DNA of 64,000 nt, taken from assembly GCF_963675165.1 (NCBI RefSeq), contig NC_087392.1, positions 2,309,001 to 2,373,000 of the forward strand, read 5' to 3'. The notes below the pieces were generated by a model. The model was not told the origin of the DNA and did not search any database. It saw only the letters and a program-made list of their open reading frames with translations. Made by a program: the position numbers and the translations under genes. Origin of the DNA: Halichondria panicea. Lineage: Eukaryota; Porifera; Demospongiae; Suberitida; Halichondriidae. Shown here one piece after another: positions 11,443 to 35,200 of this stretch; positions within the stretch are counted from its first letter, which is position 1; each line of letters starts with the position of its first letter.

Positions 11443-11735
11443 ACTTTTCTAGTTGATATTCCATGCACTGTATATAGTCAATCGATTCTCTGTTTCTAAT
11501 GTTGTATAACTCTTAGTGTTTTAATTGTGATCATTCCTGCAATTATGATTTGCTAACTTTTGTAATTACTATTGTTATTAGTGTGATTATTATGATGTTG
11601 ATGTAGTTATAACTGTAGTCGAGTCAATTACTATAATGCCTGTTTGAGCAAATGCAGTACATGGAATGCTTGCCAAAGTTTATAATCGTATAAAGTGGTA
11701 TGAGCTTGTAGTTTTTAGCAAAAAAAGTTAGTGTA

Positions 11736-14700
11736 ATGGATCCCGTGGTCCCCAGAAGCACACTGTCTCCTGCTGGATATCAGGCTAGTGTTGATAGCAA
11801 ACCCAGGCTATCCTCCCACTCCTACAGACGGGCTATTGGTGGGCCACTAACAGATAAATACAGGTAATCAGTGAGACCTCAAAAGGTTTATTGTGACTGA
11901 AACAGGGCTATACCGGATGTGGGCAAGTAATAATTGCCCACAGTCATGTTGACCATTATTAAATTTCAGTAAGTAATTATAACATTTTCTACAGAACAAA
12001 GAGTGTGAACAAGGTTAAAGTGAGGCGTCTCAAAATGCCTGACAAAGAAGACAAGCCAAAGACTGTTGGATTCATTAAGCTAGTAAGCTGCACACCATGT
12101 ACCACTAGGCCTTATCAGTAGATCAGTAGATCTACTGCTAAAAGTGTGCATATTAAATTCTATATAAAGTGGTCCTCCCTTGCAGTTCCGCTATGCCTCA
12201 TGCCTGGACGTGGTGCTGATGCTGGCTGGACTGGTGGCTGCATGCCTCAGTGGTGCAGCCTTTCCTATTGCAATGAATGTGTTTGGAGACATCACCAACT
12301 TGTTTATCAACCACCAATTCTCCCGAGATGTGGTCAGCTCAAATGTCCTCCCGTGTCCCTCGAATCCAAGCATTCTTATCCTAATATCAAATGTGACTGG
12401 TGGCGTTGTGAATTGCAGCACTAACTATATTTCTCCCGGCTGCACATTCAACTTGTCTCAGTTCATATCTGGCCAAGTAATGTGTTTAAGTAATGAAGAC
12501 TTCATTTCAGAGATCAACCTTCAAGTGTACGCATTCATAGGCATTGCTGTCGGATCGTTCCTCTTCTCCTGGATTCATGCATGGTTTTTCCAGATGGCAG
12601 CAGAGAGACAGACTCATAGGATCCGTCTCTTGTACTATCGCTCTGTTCTCAAGCAGAACATTGGCTGGTTTGAAGAGAACTCCAGTGGAGAAGTGTCCAA
12701 CAGACTCTCAAGGTACTGCTATTGTATATACACTCCCATTGAGTTCATGGTACGCTGCTCTGTGTATTTGCTCTTTTGAAGGATAGACATGATTAACGCA
12801 CTAGTGTGAGCTAGAGCTCGTTAGAAATTGACACTTTCTCCCTCCTTGCGTGCATACACTAAATGCTGATTAAAGTTTGACACCTCTCTTTTCAGTGGAC
12901 TGGACAAGATCTACAGGGGCATTGGTGATAATGTGTCGCAACTAGTGCAGTGGGTGGCCACATTTTTAGTTGCCCTGGTCGTTGGTCTAGTGCGACAGTG
13001 GGAGCTGGCTCTACTCCTCTTTGTGATCATACCGTTTATGGCACTTGCAGGGGCTCTGTTTTCTCGAGTGAGTTACAGCTTTGTCTTTGTTGTTTGGTGT
13101 TAGTATGCTTCATGCCCTTGGGTGTTTGGATTGTGCTAGACTGCTACACTGTGCACAATGACCATGGTTGTACATATACACATAATTATGCTTTGTTAAT
13201 TGTACCTTTATGCAATAATTATATGCGCTAAAATTAATGTGGGCCAAGACTAATTCTTATAATTATAATAGCTTGGAGCCATATTTTCAAGTCGTGAGGA
13301 GAAGCTGTATTCAACTGCTGGAGGCATAGCCAGTGAGGTCCTCTCCTCCGTCAAGACTGTCTTTGCCTTCGGGGGACAACAGAGGGAGAGTGACAGGTAC
13401 CGTAGTACTATACAGTGGGCCTGCGTGCATACTCATCAAGAAGCAACATGCATCACTTTTTGTTAATTGGTGCATTATTGAGGCATCTACCAGGGCTTCG
13501 TTGTCTCCTTATTCAGTAATGCTGAAACTTAACAAATTTTGTGTTTGTTCCTGAGGCCCATGGAATGAGTATTACATGGTGTTGTGTTTCTGTCACCTGC
13601 AGATATGACCGGAACCTAGCAGCTGCAACCAAGCAAGGGGTGTTCAAAGGTGCCACCGTTGGATTCAGTGTCGGGGTCATCTATTTCCTTATCTTCATTG
13701 TCTACTCTGTCTCTTTCTGGCAAGTCAAAGTGTATTATGTTTGTATCCTTTCTCTATACATACCATACCAAACTGAGAAGCACATATGTATTACTATAAC
13801 TCAGCCTATAGGTCAACAGTTAGCTTCATGCTTTTCCTGCTAACCATAGAGATGATATAAGGAAGCAAAATGTTTGCTGCAATCTATATATATATCAATC
13901 TTATATATATATATTTATATCCCGTTACTACGTTGTTGCCAAGTGCAATATGCAGCATAATGCACTGCTGAAAGTCATAATGCACTAACCACAAAACGCC
14001 CCTCCGGCATTAGACAATTAAATATTGTATCATGAGAAATAACAAGTATATCAAAGTAAGTCCAGCCATGCAGGAATGTTCAGCACTGCTGGAGTTTCTT
14101 CTTTGCAACCATGCAGGTTTTAAAATTGTCCAAGGCTCATTTTGTGGAAGATTCTGTGTTCCTAGACCTAGTCCTCGACTTCGTGATGCATGTCAATTCT
14201 GCTTCACCATAGCACTAGAAGCGGCTCTTTTTGCTGGGGCTTGAGCTGTTTTGCAGCAGTGTAGAGGCGAGCTTCTTTGGCTTGGTTGTGATGCCGAGGA
14301 TAGTGGAGGGCTGTTTCTTCGCAGCAGTTACACTGAGTAGTGGGGTGGGGCTGTTTCTTCGGCAACAATAGTAAGTAGGGTGGGGCTGTTTCTTTGCAGC
14401 AGTAGTGGGGTGGGGATGTTTTGCAGTTTTCAGCGTTGGAACTCCAACAATTTTGTGTCAAGCCATTCGTCGGTCATGCCAATCTTATACGCTGCATATA
14501 CTGGCGTCTAGAAGAGAGAAGAGATGGAGCTGTGTAGAGTTGTCTTTGTCATCTTTTTGTGCAGTTTATATTGTGTTACTAAGACAGTGTTACGTTGCTA
14601 TGCCCTCGGGATATAAACTAGTTATAACACGTGCACTCGGGATGCATGGCATATATTGCACTCAGCCCTCGGGGCTTACGCCCTCGTGCTTCAGTGCAAT

Positions 14701-17700
14701 AAATATTCCATACATCCCTTGTGCCCGTGTTATAACTATAACATAATAGTATGCATATATGCATGTAGGTGCAACTTATTGGTAGTTATCCATTCATGTA
14801 CACATAATTATAGTTGTGTGAATACGCTTCTCTGTTTTCTGGCCATCTGTGCAGGTTTGGAGGGTTCCTTGTATCAAGTGGTCGGGGACAAGGTGGTGAC
14901 GTCATCACAGTGTTCTTTGCCATTCTAGTGGGAGCCTTCCAACTTGGACAGGCTGGACCGAACCTCCTCAACCTCTCCGAATCTAGGGGAGCAGCCGGCG
15001 AGATATACAGTACCATTGACAGGGTCAGTTTTGCATCTGTGGTCATGCTCTTCACTGTCACTTTGTTGTAGCCTAGACCAAACTTGTATTAAAAATTTTA
15101 GTTGCACACTTTAGTAAATCGTCACCTTCAGGTGCAGATTGTTCAATGTTACACATAATGATTATGTCCACGGCAGATCCCACACACAGATGTGACAAAT
15201 ATTTAAGCCCTGTCCGCATGGTTAGATCAGAACGTACATTCATTAGAACTTTTGTACCTGAAGGGTCACTAACACAATCCACACAGTGTTTTGACAAGAT
15301 TTTATGACAATGTTAATTGCACAGCCGCTCACAATTGACTCGAGCTCAGAAGAAGGTCTAAAGCCGGATAATATGGAGCACACCATTGAGTTCAAAGATG
15401 TCAATTTCTCTTACCCCCATCGACAAAATGTGCAGGTTGGAGGATAGTCTCGTCAATAAAAATTGTTTTGTACATATATGTATACATGTATGCTATGTAT
15501 ACAGTAGATACACATACGCACAACTTGAAATTCCTGCTCCATGCATACGCACACCGCACACCCTCAGGTGCTCAACAACCTGCAGCTGCGTGCTGGTGCA
15601 GGTCAGACGGTGGCTCTGGTAGGCCCCAGTGGCTCGGGCAAGAGCACTGTCATTGACCTAATTCAGAGATTCTATGAACTGGGTAGTGTTGGGCAGGTAC
15701 GTTCTCAGTTTAAACTATTTCCCTCTCTTTATCTCTGCTATGAGCTAGTATATATTATGTATGTTTACGTATGGACTAGCTAATTGTACTAGTCCTCTTG
15801 TATCGACAGTATTTTCTTTGCCATGCAGCTCCTGATTGGAGGCTATGACATCAAGGACCTAAACCTCAAGTGGCTACGCAGTCAGATGGGTTTAGTCTCT
15901 CAGGAACCCGTTCTCTTTGACACCACCATTGCTGAGAACATTTGCATGGGCAACGATAATGCCACAATGGAGGAGATGCAAGAGGCTGCCAAGAGTGCCA
16001 ATGCTCACGATTTCATCTCGTCTCTTCCAGACGGCTACAACACACAAGTGGGTGAGGGCGGAGACCAATTGAGTGGGGGACAGAAGCAACGTGTGGCCAT
16101 TGCTCGAGCTCTCCTCAGAAATCCTAAAATCCTCCTTCTGGACGAAGCCACCTCTGCCCTGGACTCTGAGAGTGAGAAAGTTGTCCAGAATGCTCTCGAT
16201 AATGCTTGTGCACGTACTGATCGCACAACTATTGTGATTGCTCATCGCCTCTCAACCATTCAAAATGCTGATCTTATCGTGGTTTTAGACAAGGGCCAAG
16301 TCACTGAATCTGGTACTCATTCCGAGCTTCTCACCAAGAATGGATTGTACGCTGATCTCGTGAACACCCAGTCCCAAGCTCTACAACTTGAGGTTCCTCG
16401 ATACAGAGCCAGACCTCTAACTGGACGTAGCCTGAGAAGCAAGTCTTGGAAACAAAAGAGTATCCCTCGTACTCTGCGACGAGCCACAACCTTCACTAGC
16501 TCCGTGAAAAACCTCTCTAGGCGATCCTCTAGAATTAGTACACCGTCTAGAGCTAGTAACCGTAGCAGCTCTGCCACAGAACCCACTGAGATGACTGACG
16601 TTGGTACATCTGTTGACGTTGTTGCCCCAAGTCCAGTGGAAAGCGATATTGACAAGGATAAGCTCCCTGATGTGTCGTCATGGAAACTGATGAAAAATCT
16701 GTCGTGGAGGATTTGGCTGGTGGTGTTCATTGGGATCATGTCCTCCATTTTGAATGGCCTAGTCTTTCCCTCCTTTGCTGTTGTGTTTGGAGAAGTGCTG
16801 GGAGTGTTCTCTCTGCCGGCTTCTCAAGTTTTGGACGAAATTCACCCGTGGGGAGCAACGTTTCTCGCTCTGGGCATTGTACTCGCCGTCTCTACATTTG
16901 TCAAGGTGAGCAGTAAGCAAGATGGATGCAGGGCGGATCTAGCCAAAAATGTATAGGGGGGTTATAGACAAAAGCGAGCGCGCAAAATGTTTGGCCACGC
17001 CCCTTTCACGCCCACTTAATTGAAATTGATATCATGCGTGCACAAAGCAAATCTACTGTCTACTACAGCTAGGTGCCTTGTCATGTATACTAATACATGT
17101 GAATGGTATGTTGGTATGTGTGGATGGAAATTATTGTGTATTACTACTTAGTGTGTCCTGGACTTGTACTCATGTCAACAGATACTAATACTTCATCGTT
17201 CACAGCTTGTAAGTTAACCATGCACATTGCTCATTTAGCCACAAGCAACACAAGTGTAGGTTGATCTAGTTTTTGTGAGTGTTTGGGGGGTTGCAACCCC
17301 TGAAACCCACCCCCTAGATCCGGGCCTGGGATGTGTGTACAGTGTTAGGACCTGAAACTCATGAGCAAATTTTTTCGTGCTATTTTGCCAATAATTTTCA
17401 CCTCATTCAATCAATCATGACTGCTCTCCCACACAGAACCTATGCTTTAGTATATCGGGTGAGAATTTGACTCGAGTTGTTCGCTCCAAGCTTTTCAAGG
17501 CCATTCTTCGTCAGGAAGTTGGCTGGTTCGATGATGAAAGTAACTCAACGGCCGCACTCTCTACAAAGCTTTCCTCCAATGCTGGAGATGTCAGTGGGGT
17601 ATGTCAGTTTATTCAAGCTAGCCCTAAACCTAGCGATAAGGAATTCCATTGTACATTGTACCTAAAATAAATTTTGGCCCCATATAAAATTGGTCTTACT

Positions 17701-19879
17701 TCTTTTCTTTTCTGGTGTTGCCTTGTTTAAACAAGTATAACACAGTAGAAGAGTAATTAATGCTCTGTTGGCTCATGTGTTTGCTGTTCTGTGTCTTGAA
17801 GGCTGAGTGTGTATGTTTCTTGCAGGCTGCCGGTGTGCGGCTGGGTACTGTGATAGAGATGTCTGTGACACTGTTGGCCTCCATGGCTGTTGCGTTTGGT
17901 TACTCCTGGATTACTGCCTTTGTTGTTGTGGGACTCATTCCTATCCTGGCTGTGGGCAGTGTACTGTACTTTTCTTTGGCTGCTGGGCGTAAGAAGTCCT
18001 CCAACAAGGGCCTCAAGGAAGCATCAGAGGTGAGTGCTCACCTTCTTAGCCGAGGGGTTGTAGCTATTACTACATTAGGTAGCTAGCTACTCTCACTACC
18101 AACTGTAGTTGCAATGTAGCAAACAGTATGTTACAGTCTATAATTATTTCTTGTTACATTGTATTTCTCGGTGCAGATTGCTCTGGAGAGTGTGAAGAAC
18201 ATCCGTGTGGTGGCTGCTTTTGGTCTTGAAGAATCGTTTTATCAAACTTTTGAGAAAGAAGTTCTGGGAACCTACAAGTAAGCGTACATATACATTCAGG
18301 AATGCATGAACATGCACTCCTGATACGTTACATATACTTCTTTTTATTTTTATTTCTTGCCTCCACTGATAGGAGAGTATCCTTGTTTGGTAACGTGGTG
18401 GTTATCATTGTTATTATTGCATAATCAGGTCTGCACGGGCTTTTCTGAGCCCATGTATGTAATTCACTGCGAATTTTTGGGTTGGGAGGTCATCAAGCCA
18501 GGGATGTGCCGATGTGACGTAAAGTGTATGCAACCACATGCTCATTGATGTACACGCACACACACAGATTGTCGGTCTGCCTTAGTGTGCTCTTTGGTGT
18601 TGCCTATGCTCTCACCCAATCTCTCGTTTTCTTTGCTTACATTGTCACATTTCGTTTTGGTGCTTACATCGTCATGTTACCTACTGATGACATTCTTTAC
18701 ACTGGTTACGAAAATGTTTTCCGTGTATTTTCTGCCATTGTGTTTGGCTCAATTGCTATTGGAGCAACTGGTTCTTTCGCTCCAGATTACACCAAAGCCA
18801 AGGAATCAGCAAAAATTGTGTATGCCATTTTGGATAGGAATCCTGAAATCGACAATTACTCCCAAGATGGATTAAAGCTCGAAGACGTGAAAGGAGATCT
18901 CCAATTTGAGAATGTTTTCTTTGCCTACCCTCAGAGGCTCCAAGTGAACGTACTGTCAAGTTTCAGCCTCAAGGTGAAGCAAGGTCAAACTCTCGCTCTG
19001 GTGGGGGCAAGTGGAGGAGGCAAGAGTACAGTCATGCAACTCATCGAGAGGTTCTATGACCCGCACGCTGGATGTGCTTCTCTGGATGGCACAAATATCT
19101 TGGACATTAATCTCTCCTGGCTCCGCTCTCAGATTGGGATAGTGTCTCAAGAGCCGGTGTTGTTTGACGGAACGGTTGCTGAGAATATCCGATACGGGGC
19201 CCTGTTCAGAGAGGTGTCTGATGAGGAGGTGATTGCTGCAGCCAAATCTGCCAACATACACAGCTTCATTGAAACACTGCCAATGGTGAGTAACGTTAAC
19301 AGGGCCTACCCTGTTTTCTGCTTGTGCTATGGGAGGCAGTGGAGATGGAATGATGGTTGATGTTAAGTACCCCTAACCTCCCGTACATGAATCTCTCAAA
19401 TCTAACATTCTATATATAGACCCTCGACAAACAAACAACATTATAATACATGGCTGATATAAACTGCGTTTTACGTACAGGGTTACAACACCAGTGTTGG
19501 TGGCGAGAGCAACCAGTTGAGTGGTGGACAGAAGCAACGTGTAGCCATTGCTCGAGCTCTCCTCCGAGATCCGAAAATCCTCCTTCTGGATGAGGCCACC
19601 TCTGCCCTGGACTCTGAGAGTGAGAGGGTGGTACAAGAAGCTCTCGACAAAGCCAGGGAGGGCAGGACCTGCATAGTCATTGCTCACCGTCTCTCAACCA
19701 TATATAACTCCGACTGCATTGCTGTACTGAAGAGAGGCAAAGTGGCGGAGTTGGGGACTCATCGGGAGTTGATGGAAAAGAGGGGGCTCTATTATAGGCT
19801 GAATGGAGCGAAGGCTACAAGCCAGCCAGAGCAGGAGACAAATAACACCGAGAGTGGCATTTCAATTTTACAAATATAA
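11736..19879 (+). CDS. ABCB: ABCB full transporter 2 (P-glycoprotein/MDR type)
   Basis: Inferred exons: 11736-11863, 11995-12082, 12186-12712, 12896-13067, 13272-13396, 13603-13719, 14855-15023, 15325-15435, 15568-15696, 15829-16905, 17437-17598, 17826-18029, 18177-18277, 18568-19285, 19481-19879, giving 1408 residues. It is a tandem paralogue of the gene just upstream, 293 bp away on the same strand. NBD1: Walker [32 protein letters not shown]2: Walker [10 protein letters not shown] (unusual but with the Lys and Ser kept), [20 protein letters not shown] long basic Ser/Arg-rich linker follows NBD1 (exon 10). Exon 6 must end at 13719 with a GC donor to give [12 protein letters not shown] in frame. 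Everything from mid-exon 10 onward is present again at 28175-31975. Its NBD2 exons are nearly identical in DNA to those of ABCB gene 1. Confidence 0.93.
14235..14426. repeat. degenerate minisatellite (GGGGCTGTTTCTTCGCAGCAG-like unit)
   Basis: About five imperfect units containing GGCTGTTTCTT and GCAGCAG, separated by GTAGTGGGGTGG spacers, inside intron 6 of ABCB gene 2. Confidence 0.6.
14618..14739. repeat. palindromic short element (MITE-like)
   Basis: The arms begin TAGTTATAACACGTGCACTC and end in the inverse, GTGCCCGTGTTATAACTA. The whole 120 bp can fold back on itself. It sits in the large intron of ABCB gene 2. Confidence 0.55.
16925..17331. repeat. intronic dispersed element, low certainty
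   Basis: Intron 11 of ABCB gene 2 starts with GGGCGGATCTAGCC and later has CCCCCTAGATCCGGGCC. These are imperfect inverses about 400 bp apart, as in many short animal transposon relics. It is present in both duplicated copies. Confidence 0.4.
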
Positions 19880-20147
19880 TGTGACATTTTAGATATAGCA
19901 ATTTTTAGACATGAGTTTACAGTACATTCAAACACATTCAATAGCTTCATAAGCTAGCGTATAAATTTTGAATTTTACCTTATACGTACGTACACGGCAG
20001 TGGTTCTAGATCTCCAAATGCCAATAATGATTATGATGACAATTATAATTTTCAAATCAATGACATAAAAAAGTAATGTGCAAATGAGCTGACTATTACG
20101 TTATATGCAGCACTTCAGCTAGTATAATAAGCACACACATAATCATA

Positions 20148-20674
20148 CTAGGTATAGTGAGTATCTCTTCGTGAGGACGAGTTAGAATAAGATAGTTTTT
20201 CATGCTTTGATTTTCGCTCATGGTGTAGCTGCATGGAGAGACGGAGAGACAGTACAGGTTTACAGTAAAGTCTTAATGCATTTTAATTAAGAGAACTTAC
20301 CACTCGCTGTTGCTTGTACTTTTGTTTGAACTCTGCAAGAGACAACTTGTTGTCTAGAAAATCTTCTGCAATGACCTGGGAGAAATAATAGAGAAGTATA
20401 CAGCCTGTCATATTACGTACCTCTGATTCAGTTTCTGCTTCCTGCGTCAGTGTCTTCAATCGAGCCACAATGTTTTTGGACTGGTACCTCTGCAAGTGTG
20501 TGTGTGTGTGCGTGTGCGTGTGTGCGTGTGTGTGTGTGTGTGCGTGTGCGTGTGTGCGTGTGTGTGTGTGTGTGCGCATGTACATATAATACGTGATACC
20601 ATTACCTCAGTAAGCTGTTTTTGTTCTTCTAGCAGTTTCTCATAATCAGTCTTCAGTGCTTGCATCTCTAAGAA
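20148..20674 (-). pseudogene. VPS37A: VPS37A 3' fragment (last four exons, copy A)
   Basis: Exons corresponding to 20606-20674, 20421-20489, 20301-20375 and 20148-20228 (complement) code for the end of the Mod(r) domain (QALKTDYEKLLEEQKQ, VIAEDFLDNKLSLAEFKQKY). The fragment is cut at 20713 in the intron before the first of these exons. All upstream VPS37A exons are missing here. The sequence just upstream on this strand is tensin-like. Splicing from the last tensin exon (phase 2) into this exon (phase 0) would shift frame and soon stop, so a useful fusion is unlikely. The intact gene uses copy B at 32241-35422. Confidence 0.85.
20491..20576. repeat. (GT)n/(GCGT)n microsatellite, copy A
   Basis: About 85 bp of GT with regular GC interruptions in a VPS37A intron. 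The copy at 32584-32669 has the same length and interruptions. Confidence 0.9.
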
Positions 20675-21675
20675 CTACATGTATATACAACACAAAACGT
20701 AAACTTCTAAGAAAATATATAAATATAATTATAGAGTCTCTGCAAAGAGAAGTATTAGATTTATAACCTCTAACAAATAAGTGCTAATGACACCTTACTG
20801 TCGAGCACGCACAACACACACACCCACACACACCCACGCACGCCCACACACACACACACACGGTACCTGTTAGCATTGGTAGCCTTGATAAAGACCCTCT
20901 CATGATTTGAGAACGACCTGCTCCTCTGAATAGACTCGGCCCTCTCCCTCTCTTCACTGGTACCCTCTGCTCCGGGGGTTATGTCCAGGTCCGCCAGGTT
21001 AGAATAGAAATCAGAACCAGAATTACTCGTCATGGTCAGATTCCCAGAACTTGAAGACCGACGCCCGATACTGTCAGAGTTGAGTGGAACAGGAACATCA
21101 GGGAACTTCACTTTAGCCCACATGTCATTGTCCACAGCGGACTGTCTGTTAGGCAAATGCTCAACTGAGATTTCTTGATTGAGCGGAATCTCATCATACG
21201 ATGGTTGGTGTTTTAAGACACTTAGAGGGTGGGCTGAAGGTTTTGCTGTTTTCTTTTCCGCTTTTGATGGCGTTTCTGATGGCTTGGTTATCTTTTTTGT
21301 CTTTGTAGCCTCCCCTCTTGATTCTAAATTGGCACTCTCACGCTTTCGTTGAAGATGCTGTTTTAGTATTTGTTTCTGCAGTTCTTCGTGCACAGAGCCA
21401 ATTTTATCGTCTGTTGGTTTGGGTTTAAACACCGGTTTAGTACGAGGGGTGGGCCGTTGTGGGCGTGGCTTTATGACAGGGGTGTGGTCAGGGGACGATT
21501 TGGTTGGTTTGGTTTTGGAAAGCCCCGGACCATCTGTCCCCTCAGTTGCGAGGGTGGTGGGTGTGTCATCGTCTATCTCGGCATAGTCTTCATCAGTGGG
21601 TGTTTGAGAGTCCAGGGATCTGGAGTGAACAATTAATACACTGATACACTTTTATCACCGTACAGTATATACATG

Positions 21676-22417
21676 TAGCCTCCTTCGCAGCCTCTCCTTT
21701 TTCTGTTCTTTGTCACAGAAGAAAAAATTGGAGGAACAAAGAAAGAAAGAAGGAAGCAACTAAGAAAAAGGAGAGCCTGCCTTGCTAAGTCGCGTGATCC
21801 CCTACTGACGTAGACAAATTTTAACGAGCGTGGGCGAGAGAAAACCTCAATAACTGTCCTCCCACACAGTACTTGGAGCGCATTTACCAGGAACATAATC
21901 TGTTATGAACAGTACAGTACAGTGCAGTAGAGTCAGCCTTCGTGAGACCTTTAGTCAGTAGAGGAAGTATGAAAGACTAGAGTAGAGTAGACTATACTGC
22001 TGTAATAATTATATCTACTAATCAAGTGGGTCTGTTCTGAACTCAGGAAAAAAAACTGAGCTAAATTTAGATATTAAATTTTAGTCTCTTTAGTCTTTAC
22101 TAGGTAAGCCCTCGTCTACGATGTCTCCACGCTTGATTCTGGCTTACTATCTACGATGCTAACAGCTTTTATTTAGAGTTTGCAATGCGTAGGCATGCTG
22201 TAGCTTTTTGCTCTGTCAGCCTCCGCCCAGCTAGTGATTGCCCACGTTCATTTTCACTCGTCTACCACTCGTCTACCGTCACGCGACTTAGCAAGGTAGG
22301 CTCTCCTTTTTCTTAGTCTCTTCCTTCTTTCTTTCTTTGTTCCTCCAATTAGTCCCGTATTTTATCTTATTGAACTATGACAAAGAACAGAAAAAGGAGA
22401 GGCTGCGAAGGAGGCTA
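21676..22417. mobile_element. 742-bp element with long inverted repeats and 9-bp target duplication
   Basis: Left end TAGCCTCCTTCGCAGCCTCT, right end its inverse. The arms stay similar for about 140 bp (TTGGAGGAACAAAGAAAG; CTTGCTAAGTCGCGTGA). It is flanked on both sides by ATATACATG (21667-21675 and 22418-22426). There is no coding capacity. Long inverted repeats with a 9-bp duplication fit a non-autonomous Mutator-like element. It lies in the last readable intron of the tensin-like fragment. Confidence 0.8.
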
Positions 22418-23418
22418 ATATACATGTACATGACGACTGTACATGACGACTGTACATGTACATGAATATAGTGGTATAAAATTAAATGCATGCTCATGCG
22501 TTACATCACCATTTTAGAGCTGCATACATATGACACATGTACGTGGCACTCTCATGCAGTCATGATTGCATGCTGTAATCGAAGCCTATTCCACATAATG
22601 TACAGTACATGTTATCTATAATTAACACACGTACATGTACAACCATATGAAGGGGTTACCTTGAAGGGGGTATCCTGGGTAGAGGACGATGGACCAACTG
22701 GCTGCCGGCTTTACGCTCCCCAGAGGGGGGTGGGGGTCTGGGTGGCTTGACTGTCTTCACAACCCCTAGGTTTGGAGTGGATGGAGACGAGTCAGGAACT
22801 CTTCTATCACTTCTATCGAGAAGACTGAAAAGAGAGTCATTCGAAGTAGCTTTGTGTGGCTTTAGGATTTTCTTTGGTGGAGGAGGTGGCTTTTCTTCTG
22901 GTTGAGCAATTACTTCATCTCGTTTTGTCTTGTCTTTGACTGATTTTTGGACGACTGTGTATAACTCTGAAGATTGGGGATGTGTGAAATGGTCTATATC
23001 GTCGGGGTCCATTTGAGCACTGATTTCACTCTCTGCCCTCTCACGACGAAGTTGGGGGTACTTTATCTTTGGGGACTCCAAACTACATGTACATGACAAT
23101 TGTATATATAATTGTGTACGATGGTGAGGGAGGCCAGGGCCATATATTAGACTGACTATAGAAGTTAAATCTAGAGTTTTAAATCTAACTAGCATATGTA
23201 GTATATCCTATATAGACTTTACATCAGAGGAGGTACATGTATGACTCGATTAGGCTAAAATTAAGGTATTTGGTCACATCAATACATGTAGTCTGGCCAC
23301 GCCCTCCCCAACTTTGTATTGGGTCGGGTGAACTAGAACAGAACTACCACAAAGCAACAAACACTAATTTTATAGTTTAAAATAATTATAGCATTCAATT
23401 ATTCTACATGTACATGTA

Positions 23419-23977
23419 TACCGTACTCTACCGAGATTACACCCACCCTAATTGCATGCTACAAAGCAGCTACAGGTGGGATGGGCTTAATTTCGAAAAC
23501 AGTAGTTTTGTCTCGAAATTAAGCCCACCCAGGTGTTTGCCTCGAAATTAAGCCCACTCATTAAGAAACTATTCTTCTCTGTCTGCGTCTGAGGCCTGCC
23601 AGCTTTTGAAATACAATGAATACATCAACATACAACAACGGTGAATGCATGGGTAAAGTAGGTAGGTATAAAAAGTCAAGACTCTGCATCAGAAGGTTGT
23701 TCCTTGTCACTGTCAGTGTCTTCAACAGAGATTTAGAGAAGATTGTCCTTGTCTCTCTTATACTTGCTAATAGAATCTAGCTATATCTAATTATTCAGAG
23801 CTAACCAGCGTACACAATAAACTGCTAAACCTTTTCTTGAAAACTTGCTCACTGACAAGATGTATCACTTCCTGGTGGGCGTATTTTCGAGGCAAATTAG
23901 CCTATGCAGGAACTTTCACCCAAAAGTGGGGGTGGGCGTAATTTTGGACGTGGGCGTAATCTCGGTAGAGTACGGTA
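23419..23977. mobile_element. 559-bp inverted-repeat element flanked by TA
   Basis: Left TACCGTACTCTACCGAGATT and right AATCTCGGTAGAGTACGGTA are perfect inverses, with similarity running on into the next few bases. The interior has repeated TCGAAATTAAGCCCAC blocks and no gene. TA at both ends suggests a Tc1/mariner-like target site. It sits in a tensin intron. Confidence 0.75.
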
Positions 23978-24399
23978 TATACATGTACGTACAATGTACA
24001 AGCAAATAAAAATATATAAAACCCAAAACACGGTCACACCATTGTTCAAATCAAAGCACTCTCACAGATCCACCCACTCACTCCATAAGGTTGGGCGGGT
24101 CGTCTCCCGGCATCCCGCTGTCATAGCCTCCTCTGAACGAAGCGTACGAGTTCCTCTTTGCCAACACGTCATCGTCCAACCCAATGTTCCCATTGGTCGC
24201 CGTCCCATTGTTGACTGTCAGCTGTTTGCCGTCAAGAAGAGAGGAACGGACATCAGCAAATGGTACATCTGTGTGTGTGGGGGAGAAGGGGGTGGAAACT
24301 TTACTATGAAGCATATCGATCTGAATTCATGAGTATTGACACAGGTATGAATATTGCGGTAAGCAGTTGAGAGGATTATTGAGCTACATGTAAGTGCAT

Positions 24400-24551
24400 G
24401 AGAGAACAACCCCCCATAGTGAGAGACAACCCCCCATAGTGAGAGACAACCCCCCCCCCATAGTGAGAGACAACCCACCATAATGAGAGACAACCCCCCA
24501 TAGTGAGAGACAACCCCCCATAGTGAGAGACAACCCCCCATAGTGAGAGAG
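24400..24551. repeat. 20-bp minisatellite (GAGAGACAACCCCCCATAGT)
   Basis: Seven or so near-identical units, one with extra Cs, one with ACCATAAT, in a tensin intron. Confidence 0.9.
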
Positions 24552-24792
24552 ACCCTCAAATCAAAATCAACTATGAGCAGGCAATGGGATCGACAATATC
24601 AATCAATCACAGCGATTAGTGATTAGTGACTCCAGTAACATTTGGTAGTGGTGAAAGCACAATTGCTAGACTTGTAGACTATTAATTTAACGTGAATTTT
24701 AGGAGCGTGTAGAGTCATGAATAGCAGAAGTTAATTCATAACACGGTTAAAACATTTAAAAGGGGATACCTCCCACTTTTTTAATTAATATC

Positions 24793-25506
24793 ATGGCTCT
24801 GCAAGTAACAAACGAAGTGTTTGGTGTGATACCAGAAGACACCTCAACAAAAGCAATCGAAGCTACATTTGATCATATTCACTATGACGGTGGAGTAGTA
24901 TCTGCAGTAACAGTGATCAGCAGCCATGAACATATTATTGGCATCGATATACTACGATCTCTGCATTAACAGTTCAAAGGGAAAGTAAATTGGATGGTGA
25001 AGGTTTTGGTCACCGAAGATCATGAAGACATAGAAGCAGTTTGTGATACTGCTATTTCATATGTAAAGCGAGTTACCGGTGAAGCACCAGTATATCATGA
25101 TGGTGGCTTTAATAAACGCAAGAGAAAGCATCATGTGTACGCACTGGTACACCGAAATCTGTACTACGTGGAAAAGACACCATATCCAACCTATTTGAAG
25201 AGCAGTGTGAGCGCTTATCTTCGAAAAAATCCACTGTCAGACTTTTATATCGGTATTGCTAGTGGTCGTGATGCTTTCACTGCAATGAAAGCACGTCGCA
25301 CAGGTGACGACTACAAGGAAATGCACGGCATCAACCGGATGACGGCTGTTTTCAAATCGAAAGATCAAAAAATATGCAAAAAGCGTGAAAAAGAACTTGT
25401 TGCAGCGTACAAAACGCACCCAAGGAATTTAAATCGAATAGGCGGAGGTGGGGGAAGAAGTACCAAACAACCATGGAGTTACGTGTACCTCGCCATGCAT
25501 GTTTGA
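24793..25506 (+). pseudogene. single-exon ORF with one in-frame TAA; possible GIY-YIG-like domain
   Basis: A Met at 24793 opens a frame of 58 codons closed by TAA at 24967-24969. The same frame continues without another stop to 25506, with a second Met at 24994 (170 residues). Together this is one 237-residue reading frame broken once. It has no introns and lies on the opposite strand, within a tensin intron. The C-terminal half reads DFYIGIASGRDAFTAMKARR, then an EKEL helix and PRNLNRIGGGGGR. The YIG, Arg, Glu and Asn-Gly-rich order resembles a GIY-YIG endonuclease fold. That is a pattern-based suggestion only. It could be a decayed mobile-element gene, a protein translated from 24994 only, or a readthrough ORF. 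I do not recognise the family by name. Confidence 0.45.
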
Positions 25507-25872
25507 GATTTGAGACTGACTAGAAACATATAAAGCTAGACTGATAGAAAGACGGACAGTAGACTAGAAACTGTAACATTTTAAGTACATGTACATGTGT
25601 ACTGTAGCTAAAGATTTCTGTGTACAGATCGAGTTTATATTTTGAATCTAAAAAATTGGTACCTGTACATGTTCAGTACATACACGTACATGTACATGTG
25701 AAATGTGTTCCATATGAAGTCTAAGGCGTCCAAGGTAAAGCCACAAGCAAGCTCAAGACTCCTTAAAAAAGTCGACATAACTGTTACAACTTATCCCGAT
25801 CTTCAACTATTGATCCACGAGCATAACGTTGGATAAAGGTTGCTGCGTTTAGAATGCCTAAATAATTCGTCC

Positions 25873-26238
25873 TTACGATACATTGTCTAGACCAAGCTTC
25901 AATACAATGGCAAGTTTTACTTTGAGGAAACGTTTTTGGGCTATGGACCTTCTTACATGAGTTTGAAGAACAATAACAGCAGATCGCTTTCGTAAGTAAT
26001 CATTTCGTACAATACACATTCGAGCTGAGGCTTGCAGAATGCAAGTAGCTTTGCGAATTTGCTGGTAACGTGCTTGAGATATCATAGATCGAACGTGTGC
26101 CTGAACACGTACCACAGTTTCCACTGTCTTTATATAAACGCTTCGCTCTTGCCTCATAAGCAAAATAGACCTCCATTTTCGCTGCAGCAATGTCGTACAA
26201 ACACTGACACGTGCAAACAGTTTTCTCAGGTGAAACAT
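25873..26238 (-). pseudogene. intron-located ORF with IQ-like calmodulin-binding repeats
   Basis: 121 codons without an intron, within a tensin intron and on the tensin strand. It contains repeated blocks of about 23 residues: VVRVQAHVRSMISQARY, TCILQASARMCIVRNDY, AVIVLQTHVRRSIAQKRF, and a weaker one before them. These match the IQ motif pattern (hydrophobic-Q...R...R-Y/F) found in myosin necks and ASPM-type proteins, which bind calmodulin. No motor or other domain is nearby. It is most likely an inserted fragment of an IQ-repeat gene. It could also be an alternative exon. The start is just the first Met in the open frame. Confidence 0.4.
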
Positions 26239-26246
26239 TTTCCAAC

Positions 26247-26334
26247 TAGGTCGTTAAAATTTCGTGGAGGTCAGCCTGCCCATGAAAATAACGAATATTT
26301 TACCCCACGAAAATTACCTGCTATACGGTACATG
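26247..26334. repeat. degraded relative of the TACCGTATAGC element
   Basis: Contains AAATTTCGTGG, CCCCACGAAAATTACC and GCTATACGGTA, matching the right end of the element at 34041-34273. Confidence 0.5.
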
Positions 26335-26570
26335 CATGCACAACTGTATACCCTCAAGCTTGTAACTCTCCCACTAATGTACTGCATGTACATGTACGTA
26401 TGATAAACTGTTGTTTACAGTCTTGTACATGTATGTAGAAGCATAAACATGTGCATGTACATTGTATGTGCATGTGCATGTAATTGCCTAGCAACAAAGT
26501 ATGAAGGGTGGGTGGTATCATGCAGTGGTGTGAGGCCCGGGTGACTACTTAATTTTGATGCACTAATAAG

Positions 26571-26646
26571 GATCGTGGTTACTCAATATTAGGAGTCCTT
26601 TGTTGTGGCAAACTATAATAATTTACTGATATTGAGTAACCACGAT
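26571..26646. repeat. hairpin, 18-bp arms
   Basis: ATCGTGGTTACTCAATAT and its exact inverse ATATTGAGTAACCACGAT are separated by about 40 bp, in a tensin intron. Confidence 0.7.
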
Positions 26647-27211
26647 TCCGGGAGTATTACTGTACTGTCCAGACAGTTAAAACATTGACCCACTCACGTA
26701 CCATCAGGATACTGGTCCTCTGCATTGTCGAAGATGAGCTCCACCCGGGTACTATCATCAAATCTCTTGTCTTTGAAAGCATCGTCCAGATCTGCCTTGC
26801 TGTACACCATCCGGAGGTTCTCTCCCACCACTGCCGAGTGGAACTGACAGCGAAAGATTATCTCCATTCCGTGGGACTTTTTGTGGAAGCATTTGATCTG
26901 AGTGTGCGTGTGTAGTGGTGGGGGAGGTTATGACAAGTGTGACAGCTGTATGGGTGTGCTTCATAATTACATGGTACATGTACATGCATACACGTACACT
27001 AACCTACATGTACATGTACGCAAAATGTGTACAAAATGTAGGAACAATTAATAATCAAGGGATGTCAATACAGTACTCCTGACCTACCTACATGTATGTA
27101 GCTACATTGTACGTACATGTACATTGTACAGTTACTCACCAAGACTTCTCCTTTTAGACTCAGTCCTCCGTATATGGATATCTTCACTCTCTCCTTGTCC
27201 GCCTGGCAAAG

Positions 27212-27212
<1 letters not shown>

Positions 27213-27267
<55 letters not shown>

Positions 27268-27275
27268 GGGGGGGG
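27213..27275. repeat. (GT)n microsatellite followed by G-run
   Basis: About 52 bp of GT then a run of G. On the minus strand the (CA)n tract leads directly into the acceptor of a tensin exon at 27212. Confidence 0.9.
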
Positions 27276-28174
27276 GTGAACGGTTAGTTATCGTGGGGCT
27301 ACAAGTACAGTGGAGCCCGCCACTTTGCAAAAATAAAATCTGCAAAACCTAAAATAGTAATGGTAATGACACACGGTCGGTCCTTGCCAGAATGCAATAG
27401 TTAGATCGCAAAAGGTTAACATTTCTGCTGATTTGGTCCATTTGCAAAGGTTTCAAAAACCCGCAAAATATTCTAGTAATACGGTGGGATATATTGATGC
27501 ACAAAGTAGGCCACAAAACTCACATACATGACATGTATGACAGAGTGAAATAATTGAGCAAAAATGAGTATCAACCCTCCACCCACCCCAACGCCCACTC
27601 ACTATAGTCCAGAGGTGTAAACGAGGTCCATGTTGTCGTAGATCTTGAGGAACGGTCGAAACCCTCCCTTGCCGTCAAAGTTGGGTATACCGTGGATGAT
27701 GAGATGCTGGAGGGTCACGGGCCTGTGGAACAATGTGCGTACATGTACATGTAGGCTGTAATACTTAGTATGTGTATGTGTTGTGTAGAGTGTATCAAGA
27801 CTAGATATGAGTATACATACATGCATATTCAAGGATACATGTACATTGTAGCTAGTATTCTTGCCACTTTTGTATAGATGCAGTACAGTAATTGAAGGAT
27901 ATCTACGATGTATACAGCACAGTTATAGTAACATGTATACAAATGTAGGTACTGTTCCTGTACAAACGTAATTAATTATCCTGATCAAAACATTTTTGAA
28001 GAAATAGCGATAACGTCCTAAGCATAGACGGATATAATCCACAGACTCACGGTGATTGGAGGTCGATCTTCCCGGCTAGTAGGTCAGCAAAGTAGTGAAC
28101 GTACTTCCTCTGGGAGGGTTGGGTCACGCCCCCACACTTGCTATCGTAGAACCTCTTCATGGCGAACCGATCCA

Positions 28175-31100
28175 GGACAGAAGCAACGTGTGGCCATTGC
28201 TCGAGCTCTCCTCAGAAATCCTAAAATCCTCCTTCTGGACGAAGCCACCTCTGCCCTGGACTCTGAGAGTGAGAAAGTTGTCCAGAATGCTCTCGATAAT
28301 GCTTGTGCACGTACTGATCGCACAACTATTGTGATTGCTCATCGCCTCTCAACCATTCAAAATGCTGATCTTATCGTGGTTTTAGACAAGGGCCAAGTCA
28401 CTGAATCTGGTACTCATTCCGAGCTTCTCACCAAGAATGGATTGTACGCTGATCTCGTGAACACCCAGTCCCAAGCTCTACAACTTGAGGTTCCTCGATA
28501 CAGAGCCAGACCTCTAACTGGATGTAGCCTGAGAAGCAAGTCTTGGAAACAAAAGAGTATCCCTCGTACTCTGCGACGAGCCACAACCTTCACTAGCTCC
28601 GTGAAAAACCTCTCTAGGCGATCCTCTAGAATTAGTACACCGTCTAGAGCTAGTAACCGTAGCAGCTCTGCCACAGAACCCACTGAGATGACTGACGTTG
28701 GTACATCTGTTGACGTTGTTGCCCCAAGTCCAGTGGAAAGCGATATTGACAAGGATAAGCTCCCTGATGTGTCGTCATGGAAACTGATGAAAAATCTGTC
28801 GTGGAGGATTTGGCTGGTGGTGTTCATTGGGATCATGTCCTCCATTTTGAATGGCCTAGTCTTTCCCTCCTTTGCTGTTGTGTTTGGAGAAGTGCTGGGA
28901 GTGTTCTCTCTGCCGGCTTCTCAAGTTTTGGACGAAATTCACCCGTGGGGAGCAACGTTTCTCGCTCTGGGCATTGTACTCGCCGTCTCTACATTTGTCA
29001 AGGTGAGCAGTAAGCAAGATGGATGCAGGGCGGATCTAGCCAAAAATGTATAGGGGGTTATAGACAAAAGCGAGCGCGCAAAATGTTTGGCCACGCCCCT
29101 TTCATGCCCACTTAATTGAAATTGATATCATGCGTGCACAAAGCAAATCTACTGTCTACTACAGCTAGGTGCCTTGTCATGTATACTAATACATGTGAAT
29201 GGTATGTTGGTATGTGTGGATGGAAATTATTGTGTATTACTACTTAGTGTGTCCTGGACTTGTACTCATGTCAACAGATACTAATACTTCATCGTTCACA
29301 GCTTGTAAGTTAACCATGCACATTGCTCATTTAGCCACAAGCAACACAAGTGTAGGTTGATCTAGTTTTTGTGAGTGTTTGGGGGGTTGCAACCCCTGAA
29401 ACCCACCCCCTAGATCCGGGCCTGGGATGTGTGTACAGTGTTAGGACCTGAAACTCATGAGCAAATTTTTTCGTGCTATTTTTGCCAATAATTTTCACCT
29501 CATTCAATCAATCATGACTGCTCTCCCACACAGAACCTATGCTTTAGTATATCGGGTGAGAATTTGACTCGAGTTGTTCGCTCCAAGCTTTTCAAGGCCA
29601 TTCTTCGTCAGGAAGTTGGCTGGTTCGATGATGAAAGTAACTCAACGGCCGCACTCTCTACAAAGCTTTCCTCCAATGCTGGAGATGTCAGTGGGGTATG
29701 TCAGTTTATTCAAGCTAGCCCTAAACCTAGCGATAAGGAATTCCATTGTACATTGTACCTAAAATAAATTTCGGCCCCATATAAAATTGGTCTTACTTCT
29801 TTTCTTTTCTGGTGTTGCCTTGTTTAAACAAGTATAACACAGTAGAAGAGTAATTAATGCTCTGTTGGCTCATGTGTTTGCTGTTCTGTGTCTTGAAGGC
29901 TGAGTGTGTATGTTTCTTGCAGGCTGCCGGTGTGCGGCTGGGTACTGTGATAGAGATGTCTGTGACACTGTTGGCCTCCATGGCTGTTGCGTTTGGTTAC
30001 TCCTGGATTACTGCCTTTGTTGTTGTGGGACTCATTCCTATCCTGGCTGTGGGCAGTGTACTGTACTTTTCTTTGGCTGCTGGGCGTAAGAAGTCCTCCA
30101 ACAAGGGCCTCAAGGAAGCATCAGAGGTGAGTGCTCACCTTCTTAGCCGAGGGGTTGTAGCTATTACTACATTAGGTAGCTAGCTACTCTCACTACCAAC
30201 TGTAGTTGCAATGTAGCAAACAGTATGTTACAGTCTATAATTATTTCTTGTTACATTGTATTTCTCGGTGCAGATTGCTCTGGAGAGTGTGAAGAACATC
30301 CGTGTGGTGGCTGCTTTTGGTCTTGAAGAATCGTTTTATCAAACTTTTGAGAAAGAAGTTCTGGGAACCTACAAGTAAGCGTACATATACATTCAGGAAT
30401 GCATGAACATGCACTCCTGATACGTTACATATACTTCTTTTTATTTTTATTTCTTGCCTCCACTGATAGGAGAGTATCCTTGTTTGGTAACGTGGTGGTT
30501 ATCATTGTTATTATTGCATAATCAGGTCTGCACGGGCTTTTCTGAGCCCATGTATGTAATTCACTGCGAATTTTTGGGTTGGGAGGTCATCAAGCCAGGA
30601 TGTGCCGATGTGACGTAAAGTGTATGCAACCACATGCTCATTGATGTACACGCACACACACAGATTGTCGGTCTGCCTTAGTGTGCTCTTTGGTGTTGCC
30701 TATGCTCTCACCCAATCTCTCGTTTTCTTTGCTTACATTGTCACGTTTCGTTTTGGTGCTTACATCGTCATGTTACCTACTGACGACATTCTCTACACTG
30801 GTTACGAAAACGTTTTCCGTGTATTTTCTGCCATTGTGTTTGGCTCAATTGCTATTGGAGCAACTGGTTCTTTCGCTCCAGATTACACCAAAGCCAAGGA
30901 ATCAGCAAAAATTGTGTACGCCATTTTGGATAGGAATCCTGAAATCGACAATTACTCCCAAGATGGATTAAAGCTCGAAGATGTGAAAGGAGATCTCCAA
31001 TTTGAGAATGTTTTCTTTGCCTACCCTCAGAGGCTCCAAGTGAACGTACTGTCAAGTTTCAGCCTCAAGGTGAAGCAAGGTCAAACTCTCGCTCTGGTGG

Positions 31101-31975
31101 GGGCAAGTGGAGGAGGCAAGAGTACAGTCATGCAACTCATCGAGAGGTTCTATGACCCGCACGCTGGATGTGCTTCTCTGGATGGCACAAATATCTTGGA
31201 CATTAATCTCTCCTGGCTCCGCTCTCAGATTGGGATAGTGTCTCAAGAGCCGGTGTTGTTTGACGGAACGGTTGCTGAGAATATCCGATACGGGGCCCTG
31301 TTCAGAGAGGTGTCTGATGAGGAGGTGATTGCTGCAGCCAAATCTGCCAACATACACAGCTTCATTGAAACACTGCCAATGGTGAGTAACGTTAACAGGG
31401 CCTACCCTGTTTTCTGCTTGTGCTATGGGAGGCAGTGGAGATGGAATGATGGTTGATGTTAAGTACCCCTAACCTCCCGTACATGAATCTCTCAAATCTA
31501 ACATTCTATATATAGACCCTCGACAAACAAACAACATTATAATACATGGCTGATATAAACTGCGTTTTACGTACAGGGTTACAACACCAGTGTTGGTGGC
31601 GAGAGCAACCAGTTGAGTGGTGGACAGAAGCAACGTGTAGCCATTGCTCGAGCTCTCCTCCGAGATCCGAAAATCCTCCTTCTGGATGAGGCCACCTCTG
31701 CCCTGGACTCTGAGAGTGAGAGGGTGGTACAAGAAGCTCTCGACAAAGCCAGGGAGGGCAGGACCTGCATAGTCATTGCTCACCGTCTCTCAACCATATA
31801 TAACTCCGACTGCATTGCTGTACTGAAGAGAGGCAAAGTGGCGGAGTTGGGGACTCATCGGGAGTTGATGGAAAAGAGGGGGCTCTATTATAGGCTGAAT
31901 GGAGCGAAGGCTACAAGCCAGCCAGAGCAGGAGACAAATAACACCGAGAGTGGCATTTCAATTTTACAAATATAA
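28175..31975 (+). pseudogene. ABCB: truncated copy of ABCB gene 2 (3' part)
   Basis: Starts in mid-exon 10, inside the NBD1 signature ([13 protein letters not shown]), and runs to the same stop as ABCB gene 2. Exons correspond to 28175-29002, 29534-29695, 29923-30126, 30274-30374, 30664-31381, 31577-31975. Transmembrane domain 1 and the NBD1 Walker A are absent, so a normal transporter cannot be made. All remaining splice sites and frames are intact. Coding differences from copy A are few: an Arg codon at 16426 is Cys at 28523, and several silent changes lie in 30780-30990. There is no promoter of its own. The open frame happens to run left into antisense tensin sequence as far as 28052. This intactness fits either a very recent duplication or an assembly artefact. 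Confidence 0.9.
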
Positions 31976-32240
31976 TGTGACATTTTAGATATAGCAATTT
32001 TTAGACATGAGTTTACAGTACATTCAAACACATTCAATAGCTTCATAAGCTAGCGTATAAATTTTGAATTTTACCTTATACGTACGTACACGGCAGTGGT
32101 TCTAGATCTCCAAATGCCACTAATGATTATGATGACAATTATAATTTTCAAATCAATGACATAAAAAAGTAATGTGCAAATGAGCTGACTATTACGTTAT
32201 ATGCAGCACTTCAGCTAGTATAAGCACACACATAATCATA

Positions 32241-35200
32241 CTAGGTATAGTGAGTATCTCTTCGTGAGGACGAGTTAGAATAAGATAGTTTTTCATGCTT
32301 TGATTTTCGCTCATGGTGTAGCTGCATGGAGAGACGGAGAGACAGTACAGGTTTACAGTAAAGTCTTAATGCATTTTAATTAAGAGAACTTACCACTCGC
32401 TGTTGCTTGTACTTTTGTTTGAACTCTGCAAGAGACAACTTGTTGTCTAGAAAATCTTCTGCAATGACCTGGGAGAAATAATAGAGAAGTATACAGCCTG
32501 TCATATTACGTACCTCTGATTCAGTTTCTGCTTCCTGCGTCAGTGTCTTCAATCGAGCCACAATGTTTTTGGACTGGTACCTCTGCAAGTGTGTGTGTGT
32601 GTGCGTGTGCGTGTGTGCGTGTGTGTGTGTGTGTGCGTGTGCGTGTGTGCGTGTGTGTGTGTGTGTGCGCATGTACATATAATACGTGATACCATTACCT
32701 CAGTAAGCTGTTTTTGTTCTTCTAGCAGTTTCTCATAATCAGTCTTCAGTGCTTGCATCTCTAAGAACTACATGTATATACAACACAAAACGTAAACTTC
32801 TAAGAAAGCCCATTATCACATACAAACAAGTTTCAATGTAATCACGTGCACATTCTATGGAACATATTGCTAATACATGTACATGTACATGTACAACCCA
32901 TACATGTACCTTTTCCTGAAGCTGTGTCCATGATTCCTGCATGTCGGGCTCAACTCTCAGGTTGAGACCAGCCTGCCCTTCATTGTCAGCCAATAACTGG
33001 TCTCTGTCGCTGTGCACTTTTCGGATCTGCGTAGCAGGTTGAAACAAGTTCGTAAGTAAACTCCCATCGGACATATAAATTGACACTAGCACAATGACAA
33101 TGTACTATGAGTATGTACATATCTATACACTGTACACGACATTATACATGTAACAAGGCAAACAAAAATGGTGGACACACAAGTGCATGTGTTCGTGTGC
33201 TAAGCACTTACCACATCCATCTTTGTGACGTACTGCTCGACTAGGACCGGCCCTTCTTCCTCATTGAGGTATCTATTCAGCTCCTCAGTACTGCACACAC
33301 ACGACAAGGCAATCAACTTTACACACCTCATTCAGCACACACAATCAAGCGTACAATGGATCCGATGTAAACAAAAACTATGGATACAGTCTTCATATAA
33401 TACAACCCTTTTCACCTCATTTGAAACATTCAAAACAAAATGTCACTCCAATTGACGTACAGAGTGTGCTACAGTAGTGGTTGACTTATGATAAGGTTTT
33501 CATTTAAAGTGAAGTAAAAAGGGATGTGTAAACAAACACACAACAGAAACAATGAATTCACCTCATTTGGCCAATGTCCTCTAATTTATCTTGGAGAGAG
33601 GGGGGCACGTAGCGACTCCTGGCAGGGACAGCCTGAGGGTGAGATAATAACACACACGATATCAACACATGTACAACACATTCCAAGCCTGAGGGGATAG
33701 TAACACACACAATATCAACACGTGTAGAACACATTCCACGTCAAGGGTACACTGTACAAAGATCAGTACTCACAACAGAGGGTGGTGGGGCTGGTCTCCT
33801 GGTTCCCCCATGCTCCCATTCGTCACTGGTCACCGTGTGAGGTACAGAGCTGTACATGAACGTTGTGTGAGGTGCACTCGAGGGGGGAGGAAATAGAGGG
33901 ACATAAAACATGCTGGAGCCGGCCTGCACTGGAGTGGGGTGTGACATGGGGAGGAGCTCAGGAGGGTGCTCTGTAAACTCCTTAACAATCTGCAAGAAAG
34001 TGTGGCATCGCACGATAATTATGTGCTTTGTGGTCGTGTATACCGTATAGCGGGAAATTTTCGCGGGTGCAAATTTTCGCTATTTGGCTCCCAGAGAAAT
34101 TTTCACGGTTTTAATTTTCGTGTCAATGCCAATAAACCACACCCACCAATAGGTTTTGCACCTGCGTATACCGGTGCGTGGGAGTTTATCCCAGTTTTAA
34201 TTTTCGCGTTGACTACTCTGCCCTCGAAAAACGCGAAAATTTGCACCCCACGAAAATTTCCCGCTATACGGTATTTGTATGTATAATTATAGAGAACCCA
34301 ATTTAAAAAAGCCACACTGGCATCACTGCAATACTAAGAATGGCTTACTTGTTGAATGGCTTTGCCCAGGTTTGAGTGAATTGAAAACTGCGAAGGAACA
34401 AAGCATAGCTACTAACAACACGTTATCAGCAAAAATACTCACATTCTTGATGGCCGGACTCCCATCCACCATCATCTGCACACAGACAAATCAACAAGCC
34501 ATGAAAATACAGCAGAATCTCACAAACATCTACACTACATGTATCACACGTGCTTGAAGGACACTGTCATCAATTGCATAGTATTAGACCAGAAGAGGAT
34601 TGTCAGGGTCAAAAAGGTCTTAATGCTTCCGGATGACTTCAATTGAATTCCACTCAGCTAGCTCCACGTGAATTGGAGATACGTGGAATTCAATTAAAGT
34701 CCTCCGGAAGTAGCTTTATGATTGACCCTGACGACCTCTGGTATTAGACTAGACAGTTGAGTTTTAGTATTTTTCTCTACGCATGAGCACATGTGATATA
34801 GTAGAGTTATACACATGATGAAATGCCTGACTCTATAGACACTAACAAAGGAAGTAATATGTGTACACTGACGTACATGCTCATTGATCCAGGGATGTCT
34901 CATTGGAGGGTACACTGTCACGATCGGGGCATGATCAGTCAGAGGAAAGCTCTGAGGCAGCTTACTGCATAATAAACATTACTAATTCATACTTTAGTGT
35001 ACAACGCATACGTCACTCCAGTGCCAATGTGTAGGTGGTCTGCTAAGATCATGAGGCTTACACGGCAGCGGATGTGGAAACGCTCTAAAATTTATAACTT
35101 GTCCTTTACTAACCCAAACCACTCCCTTCCACACCTACATCCGGTGCCCCATAAATATTACTCAGCACCTTGTCACTTACATATCCAGAGTTATGGTCAG

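Follow-up and report, generated by a model that had tools for sequence, protein, structure and literature searches.

A probable templated-insertion cycle that placed a tensin gene fragment between two copies of an ABCB-VPS37 segment in a sponge genome

How does the middle of a tensin gene come to lie between two nearly identical copies of a segment shared by an ABCB and a VPS37 gene, and what became of the three genes concerned? The question is raised by a window of 64,000 nucleotides of Halichondria panicea DNA, corresponding to C16:2309001-2373000 in an assembly that comprises 131.5 Mb and 39 contigs. Comparing the window with itself by BLAST, we found that the two copies of the host segment, here called segment A, match with 99.655% identity over 4,638 columns (E = 0; 10 mismatches, 4 gap openings). 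Counted base by base, they differ by 10 substitutions in 4,632 sites, three 1-bp indels and one 3-bp indel. This bears out the original prediction, which had described near-identical repeats at 16078-20713 and 28175-32806 and was right to one base at their ends (99.66% by self-BLAST). The assembly thus reads, in order, left flank, segment A, a filler of 12 bases, 5.7 kb of tensin sequence from contig C6 with three extra pieces (E1-E3), segment A again from its start, and right flank (Table 1), with the host segment present twice, once on either side of the insert. A search with copy 1 against the 131-Mb assembly of 39 contigs gave no third full copy and only partial other matches among the 40 of 1,221 candidates scored. 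The results support the view that a single ancestral ABCB-VPS37 locus gained one copy of the segment plus the insert. We suggest that a germline templated-insertion cycle is the best explanation and give this reading a probability of roughly 0.72.

Table 1 Features of the rearranged locus (positions in the window).
Feature	Position	Strand	Remark
ABCB-II (P-glycoprotein type)	12168..19879	+	left flank through copy 1; start approximate
Segment A, copy 1 (ABCB-II 3' half, intergenic stretch, last VPS37 exons)	16078..20714	+	runs on from left flank
Apparently orphan VPS37 last exons	20283..20674	-	fragment in copy 1
12-base A+T filler, left inner junction	20715..20726	.	no exact match elsewhere in searched DNA
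Copied tensin fragment (plus E1-E3)	20727..28176	-	collinear with C6:5820667-5826404; part of PTEN_C2
E1, MITE-like element with terminal inverted repeats	21676..22417	.	absent from C6 donor
E2, 604 bp	24551..25154	+	no other DNA match reported in genome
E3, patchwork	25714..26294	.	dispersed repeat, IQ-motif sequence and MITE-like end
2-base microhomology GG, right inner junction	28175..28176	.	donor and target both GG
Apparently orphan ABCB-II 3' half	28175..31975	+	fragment in copy 2, without 5' exons
Segment A, copy 2	28175..32807	+	runs on into right flank
VPS37-type (Mod_r) gene	32376..34978	-	right flank into copy 2; 5' limit approximate

The insert is collinear, in a single orientation, with a tensin-2-like gene on C6. 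In this region, parts of the minus strand match the C1, tyrosine phosphatase and SH2 families (Pfam), the phosphatase motif HCKGGKGRTG is readable, as is the C2 exon that also occurs in the insert, and among solved structures the SH2 part comes closest to those of a 'tensin-like C1 domain-containing phosphatase', which we take to be tensin 2. For the tensin PTB part at the 3' end of the gene, two candidate C6 stretches chosen by eye gave no Pfam family. A phmmer search with 27602-27922 of the window returned no useful match. The insert holds only the middle of the gene with part of the PTEN_C2 family (Pfam); the copied stretch does not reach the phosphatase-motif, SH2 and C1 parts, and by eye both insert ends were placed within exons. 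As read from the sequence, the insert is a fragment, since the C6 tensin gene extends past both of its ends. The source has therefore been retained, and looking for a tensin gene elsewhere in the assembly, as had been recommended, led to this longer gene. Searches with 20714-21714, 22418-24550 and 25000-28174 revealed no third locus of the tensin stretch.

The inner segment had also been called foreign, a description that does not hold, as it is an endogenous sequence matching C6 of the same assembly. An origin as a retrocopy was rejected because non-coding donor DNA is kept and introns have not been lost. Likewise, we rejected a transposon origin of the whole insert, as inspection of the junction sequences by eye showed neither terminal repeats nor a short target-site duplication at either end. 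The donor's non-coding DNA that has been kept includes a repeat of about 560 bp with many genomic relatives, which insert and donor share.

At the left inner junction, the target can be followed through 20714, and the filler, which matches neither side, leads directly to the donor at C6:5820667; an exact template for the filler was found neither in the window nor in the readable part of 40 kb around the donor. The shared bases at the right inner junction sit within a match of five of six positions (donor GGGCAG, target GGACAG). Overlaps of 2 bp (imperfectly 5 of 6) and a 12-bp filler are junction signs of the kind expected for MMBIR/FoSTeS, though not specific to MMBIR, and alone they do not separate replicative switching from end joining.

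Both inner junctions are read from the assembly, where they lie on one contig. Could the arrangement be an artefact in which two haplotypes, or chimeric molecules, were wrongly joined? Six of the seven A-copy differences in ABCB exon ORFs are synonymous, as would be seen between two working alleles, which speaks for this view. However, a chimeric join of two ordinary haplotypes, which the original prediction had offered as one option, is not supported: neither a normal haplotype nor one with a simple insertion contains a junction from the end of A to tensin or from tensin to the start of A. Moreover, the junctions are non-homologous, with a 12-base filler and a 2-base overlap, and overlap assemblers are not expected to join sequences at such places. 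Nor is the insert a reused piece of the C6 assembly: 55 substitutions and 15 indels separate the two, as do the three pieces of about 0.6-0.7 kb each, and the searched parts of the insert gave no further locus from which it could have been taken. We consider an artefact improbable and the rearrangement probably real.

The other option of the original prediction, template switching, is supported, as the collinearity of insert and donor, the repeated segment A, and the filler and microhomology together fit the form of a cycle. A replication or break-repair intermediate on C16 would have left its template at 20714 and would then have copied the C6 tensin locus. Synthesis would have switched back to 16078, 4.6 kb upstream of the point of exit, via the 2-base microhomology, and segment A would have been copied a second time. 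Replicative template switching is what we infer from the structure.

The same end product could arise from a widely staggered double-strand break, both long ends of which were filled in, duplicating A, and then joined via a copied filler (patch-mediated repair), a model described for insertions in rice (in the parts of PMC7407515 dealing with these). The insertions known from that account measure 10-1000 bp and stem from short ectopic donors or from templates within 200 bp of the break (PMC7407515, same parts), whereas here the stagger would amount to 4.6 kb and the filler to 5.7 kb from another contig, and we regard this route as unlikely. Alternatively, a circle made up of A and the tensin piece might have arisen at the outset and then entered A by homologous recombination, which would yield the same A-insert-A structure with the same junctions. 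This route would take the same template switches and, on top of them, the formation of a circle and its re-entry, and as no observation calls for these additional steps, the circle seems very unlikely. Tandem duplication and insertion are each common alone, and an ordinary tandem duplication of A might have been followed by a tensin insertion exactly at the new junction; that the insertion should have hit this junction to the base, and without a target duplication, makes the two-step scenario hardly credible. A heterozygous reciprocal translocation misassembled into the present order was set aside, as it requires a rare event and a misjoin as well.

When would the cycle have taken place? Across four blocks, with E1-E3 and block edges omitted, we counted 55 substitutions between insert and C6 donor over 5,440 aligned bases (57 mismatches by BLAST over slightly wider blocks). 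Compared to the 10 in 4,632 between the A copies, this is a nearly fivefold gap (Fisher p = 2.5e-7). In coding stretches, set by eye from conserved peptides, eight of ten differences between insert and donor are synonymous, against about 28% expected without constraint (P = 0.001, with an assumed transition/transversion weight of 4); positions 23073 (synonymous), 24284 (S/P), 27454-27546 and 27863 (the last two in frames judged non-coding) were omitted from this count, and adding 23073 and 24284 makes it nine of 12. None of the 15 indels falls inside these stretches. Because a dead copy is not expected to collect mainly synonymous changes, the divergence seems to have mostly built up between working tensin alleles and not in the dead copy. 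On sequence evidence, the event is probably young, and the C6 allele that was copied probably differed by about 1% from the assembled one.

The differences between the A copies are unevenly spread. Six of the ten substitutions, all synonymous, lie within 238 bp of one ABCB exon ORF (18649-18886; simulated P = 0.0003, with the window width of the test taken from the data), leaving four differences in about 4.4 kb outside this tract. The cluster points to later conversion or allelic exchange in one A copy; ABCB-I as the source of the tract is not supported, as self-BLAST at 1e-10 gave no match of the tract to it. An old event with A copies homogenised by gene conversion would also produce the nearly fivefold gap, but it accounts less well than a young event for the synonymous bias in tensin.

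Three extra pieces of about 740, 600 and 580 bases in the insert are absent from the C6 copy. The first, E1, is called MITE-like from its visible inverted repeats; it is flanked by an 11-bp direct repeat, which we read as a 9-bp target duplication beside a terminal TA, and has at least 39 other near-full matches in the genome among the 40 of 680 candidates scored. An ORF that starts in E2 runs on to 25506 (24551-25506); of this ORF, C6 has only the 3' part, 96% identical over residues 63-178; a relative on C4 (C4:2865338) has 52% identity. As the ORF continues into DNA that C6 has kept, and as it has this relative on C4, C6 probably lost the E2 part. With E values of up to 10 allowed, Pfam gave no match for the E2 ORF; by eye, some of its motifs are reminiscent of a GIY-YIG nuclease.

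The third piece, E3, stands where the C6 donor has a MITE-like element. It is made up of a 92-bp piece from a dispersed repeat, 443 bp of IQ-motif sequence (98% identical to C6:6574415-6574861, about 750 kb from the tensin donor) and a stretch leading into a broken MITE-like end. The source of the IQ-motif part presumably resembles ASPM. This patchwork looks like a second templated repair event. As the insert itself contains it, the 12-kb stretch may carry two such events, one stacked on the other, and distant gene pieces might even be inserted repeatedly in this way in the germline here, with convergent gene pairs perhaps serving as safe landing sites; this wider idea is speculative and, at present, rather doubtful.

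What did the event do to the host genes? ABCB-II and VPS37 are convergent, and segment A holds the 3' ends of both, with the ABCB-II stop at 19879 and the VPS37 stop at 32376 in copy 2. The exon ORF of the first nucleotide-binding domain (NBD1; 15793-16956) crosses the border at 16078 unbroken, and the P-glycoprotein match spans this border. The left part of the window carries two tandem ABCB genes of the P-glycoprotein type (6022-19879). In the VPS37 gene, positions 13-67 of the 146 of Mod_r match in the right flank, at 23 bits and thus below the curated cut-off of 30.1 bits, and positions 111-138 match inside A. Pfam gave no Mod_r match for the middle exon and no family for 33741-34079, and the structure match to VPS37A is weak (E = 0.36).

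Each host gene can apparently be read through one A copy, ABCB-II through the left flank and copy 1, VPS37 through copy 2 and the right flank, and judging from order and open frames both parent genes appear whole. As the two genes converge and both of their 3' ends lie within A, no parental gene need be lost. The expectation of three broken genes is hence not supported, the tensin gene also continuing on C6. Rather, the event apparently added three fragments, namely an ABCB-II 3' half, the last VPS37 exons and the tensin fragment, and was apparently harmless to the parent genes, a sparing that may account for the tolerance of the variant. The case shows how the copying and pasting of 12 kb can spare parental genes and still leave fragments, which automatic annotation might list as genes that are broken or fused.

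The present case is a further example of an already known class of rearrangement. In a reference assembly, it offers a base-level view of a class that owes its name to cancer genomes; the donor, both junctions and the relative ages can all be read. The PCAWG study defines a 'cycle' of templated insertions and states that most such events have two junctions (PMC7025897). As in those cycles, a string copied from elsewhere returns to the host chromosome and a host segment is re-copied; the cycles described in that study are somatic and from human cancer, whereas here we deal with a reference assembly and one remote 5.7-kb template. Complex chromosomal insertions attributed to FoSTeS/MMBIR, as described in part of PMC5120786, share the interchromosomally copied insert and the short microhomology or small insertions at junctions, but the basic cases given there always have a deletion at the insertion site, in contrast to the 4.6-kb duplication found here. 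Patch-mediated repair of double-strand breaks in rice (Vaughn and Bennetzen 2014, as summarised in part of PMC7407515) likewise leaves an insertion with a flanking direct duplication, at a scale of 10-1000 bp in that summary compared to kilobases from another contig at the sponge locus.
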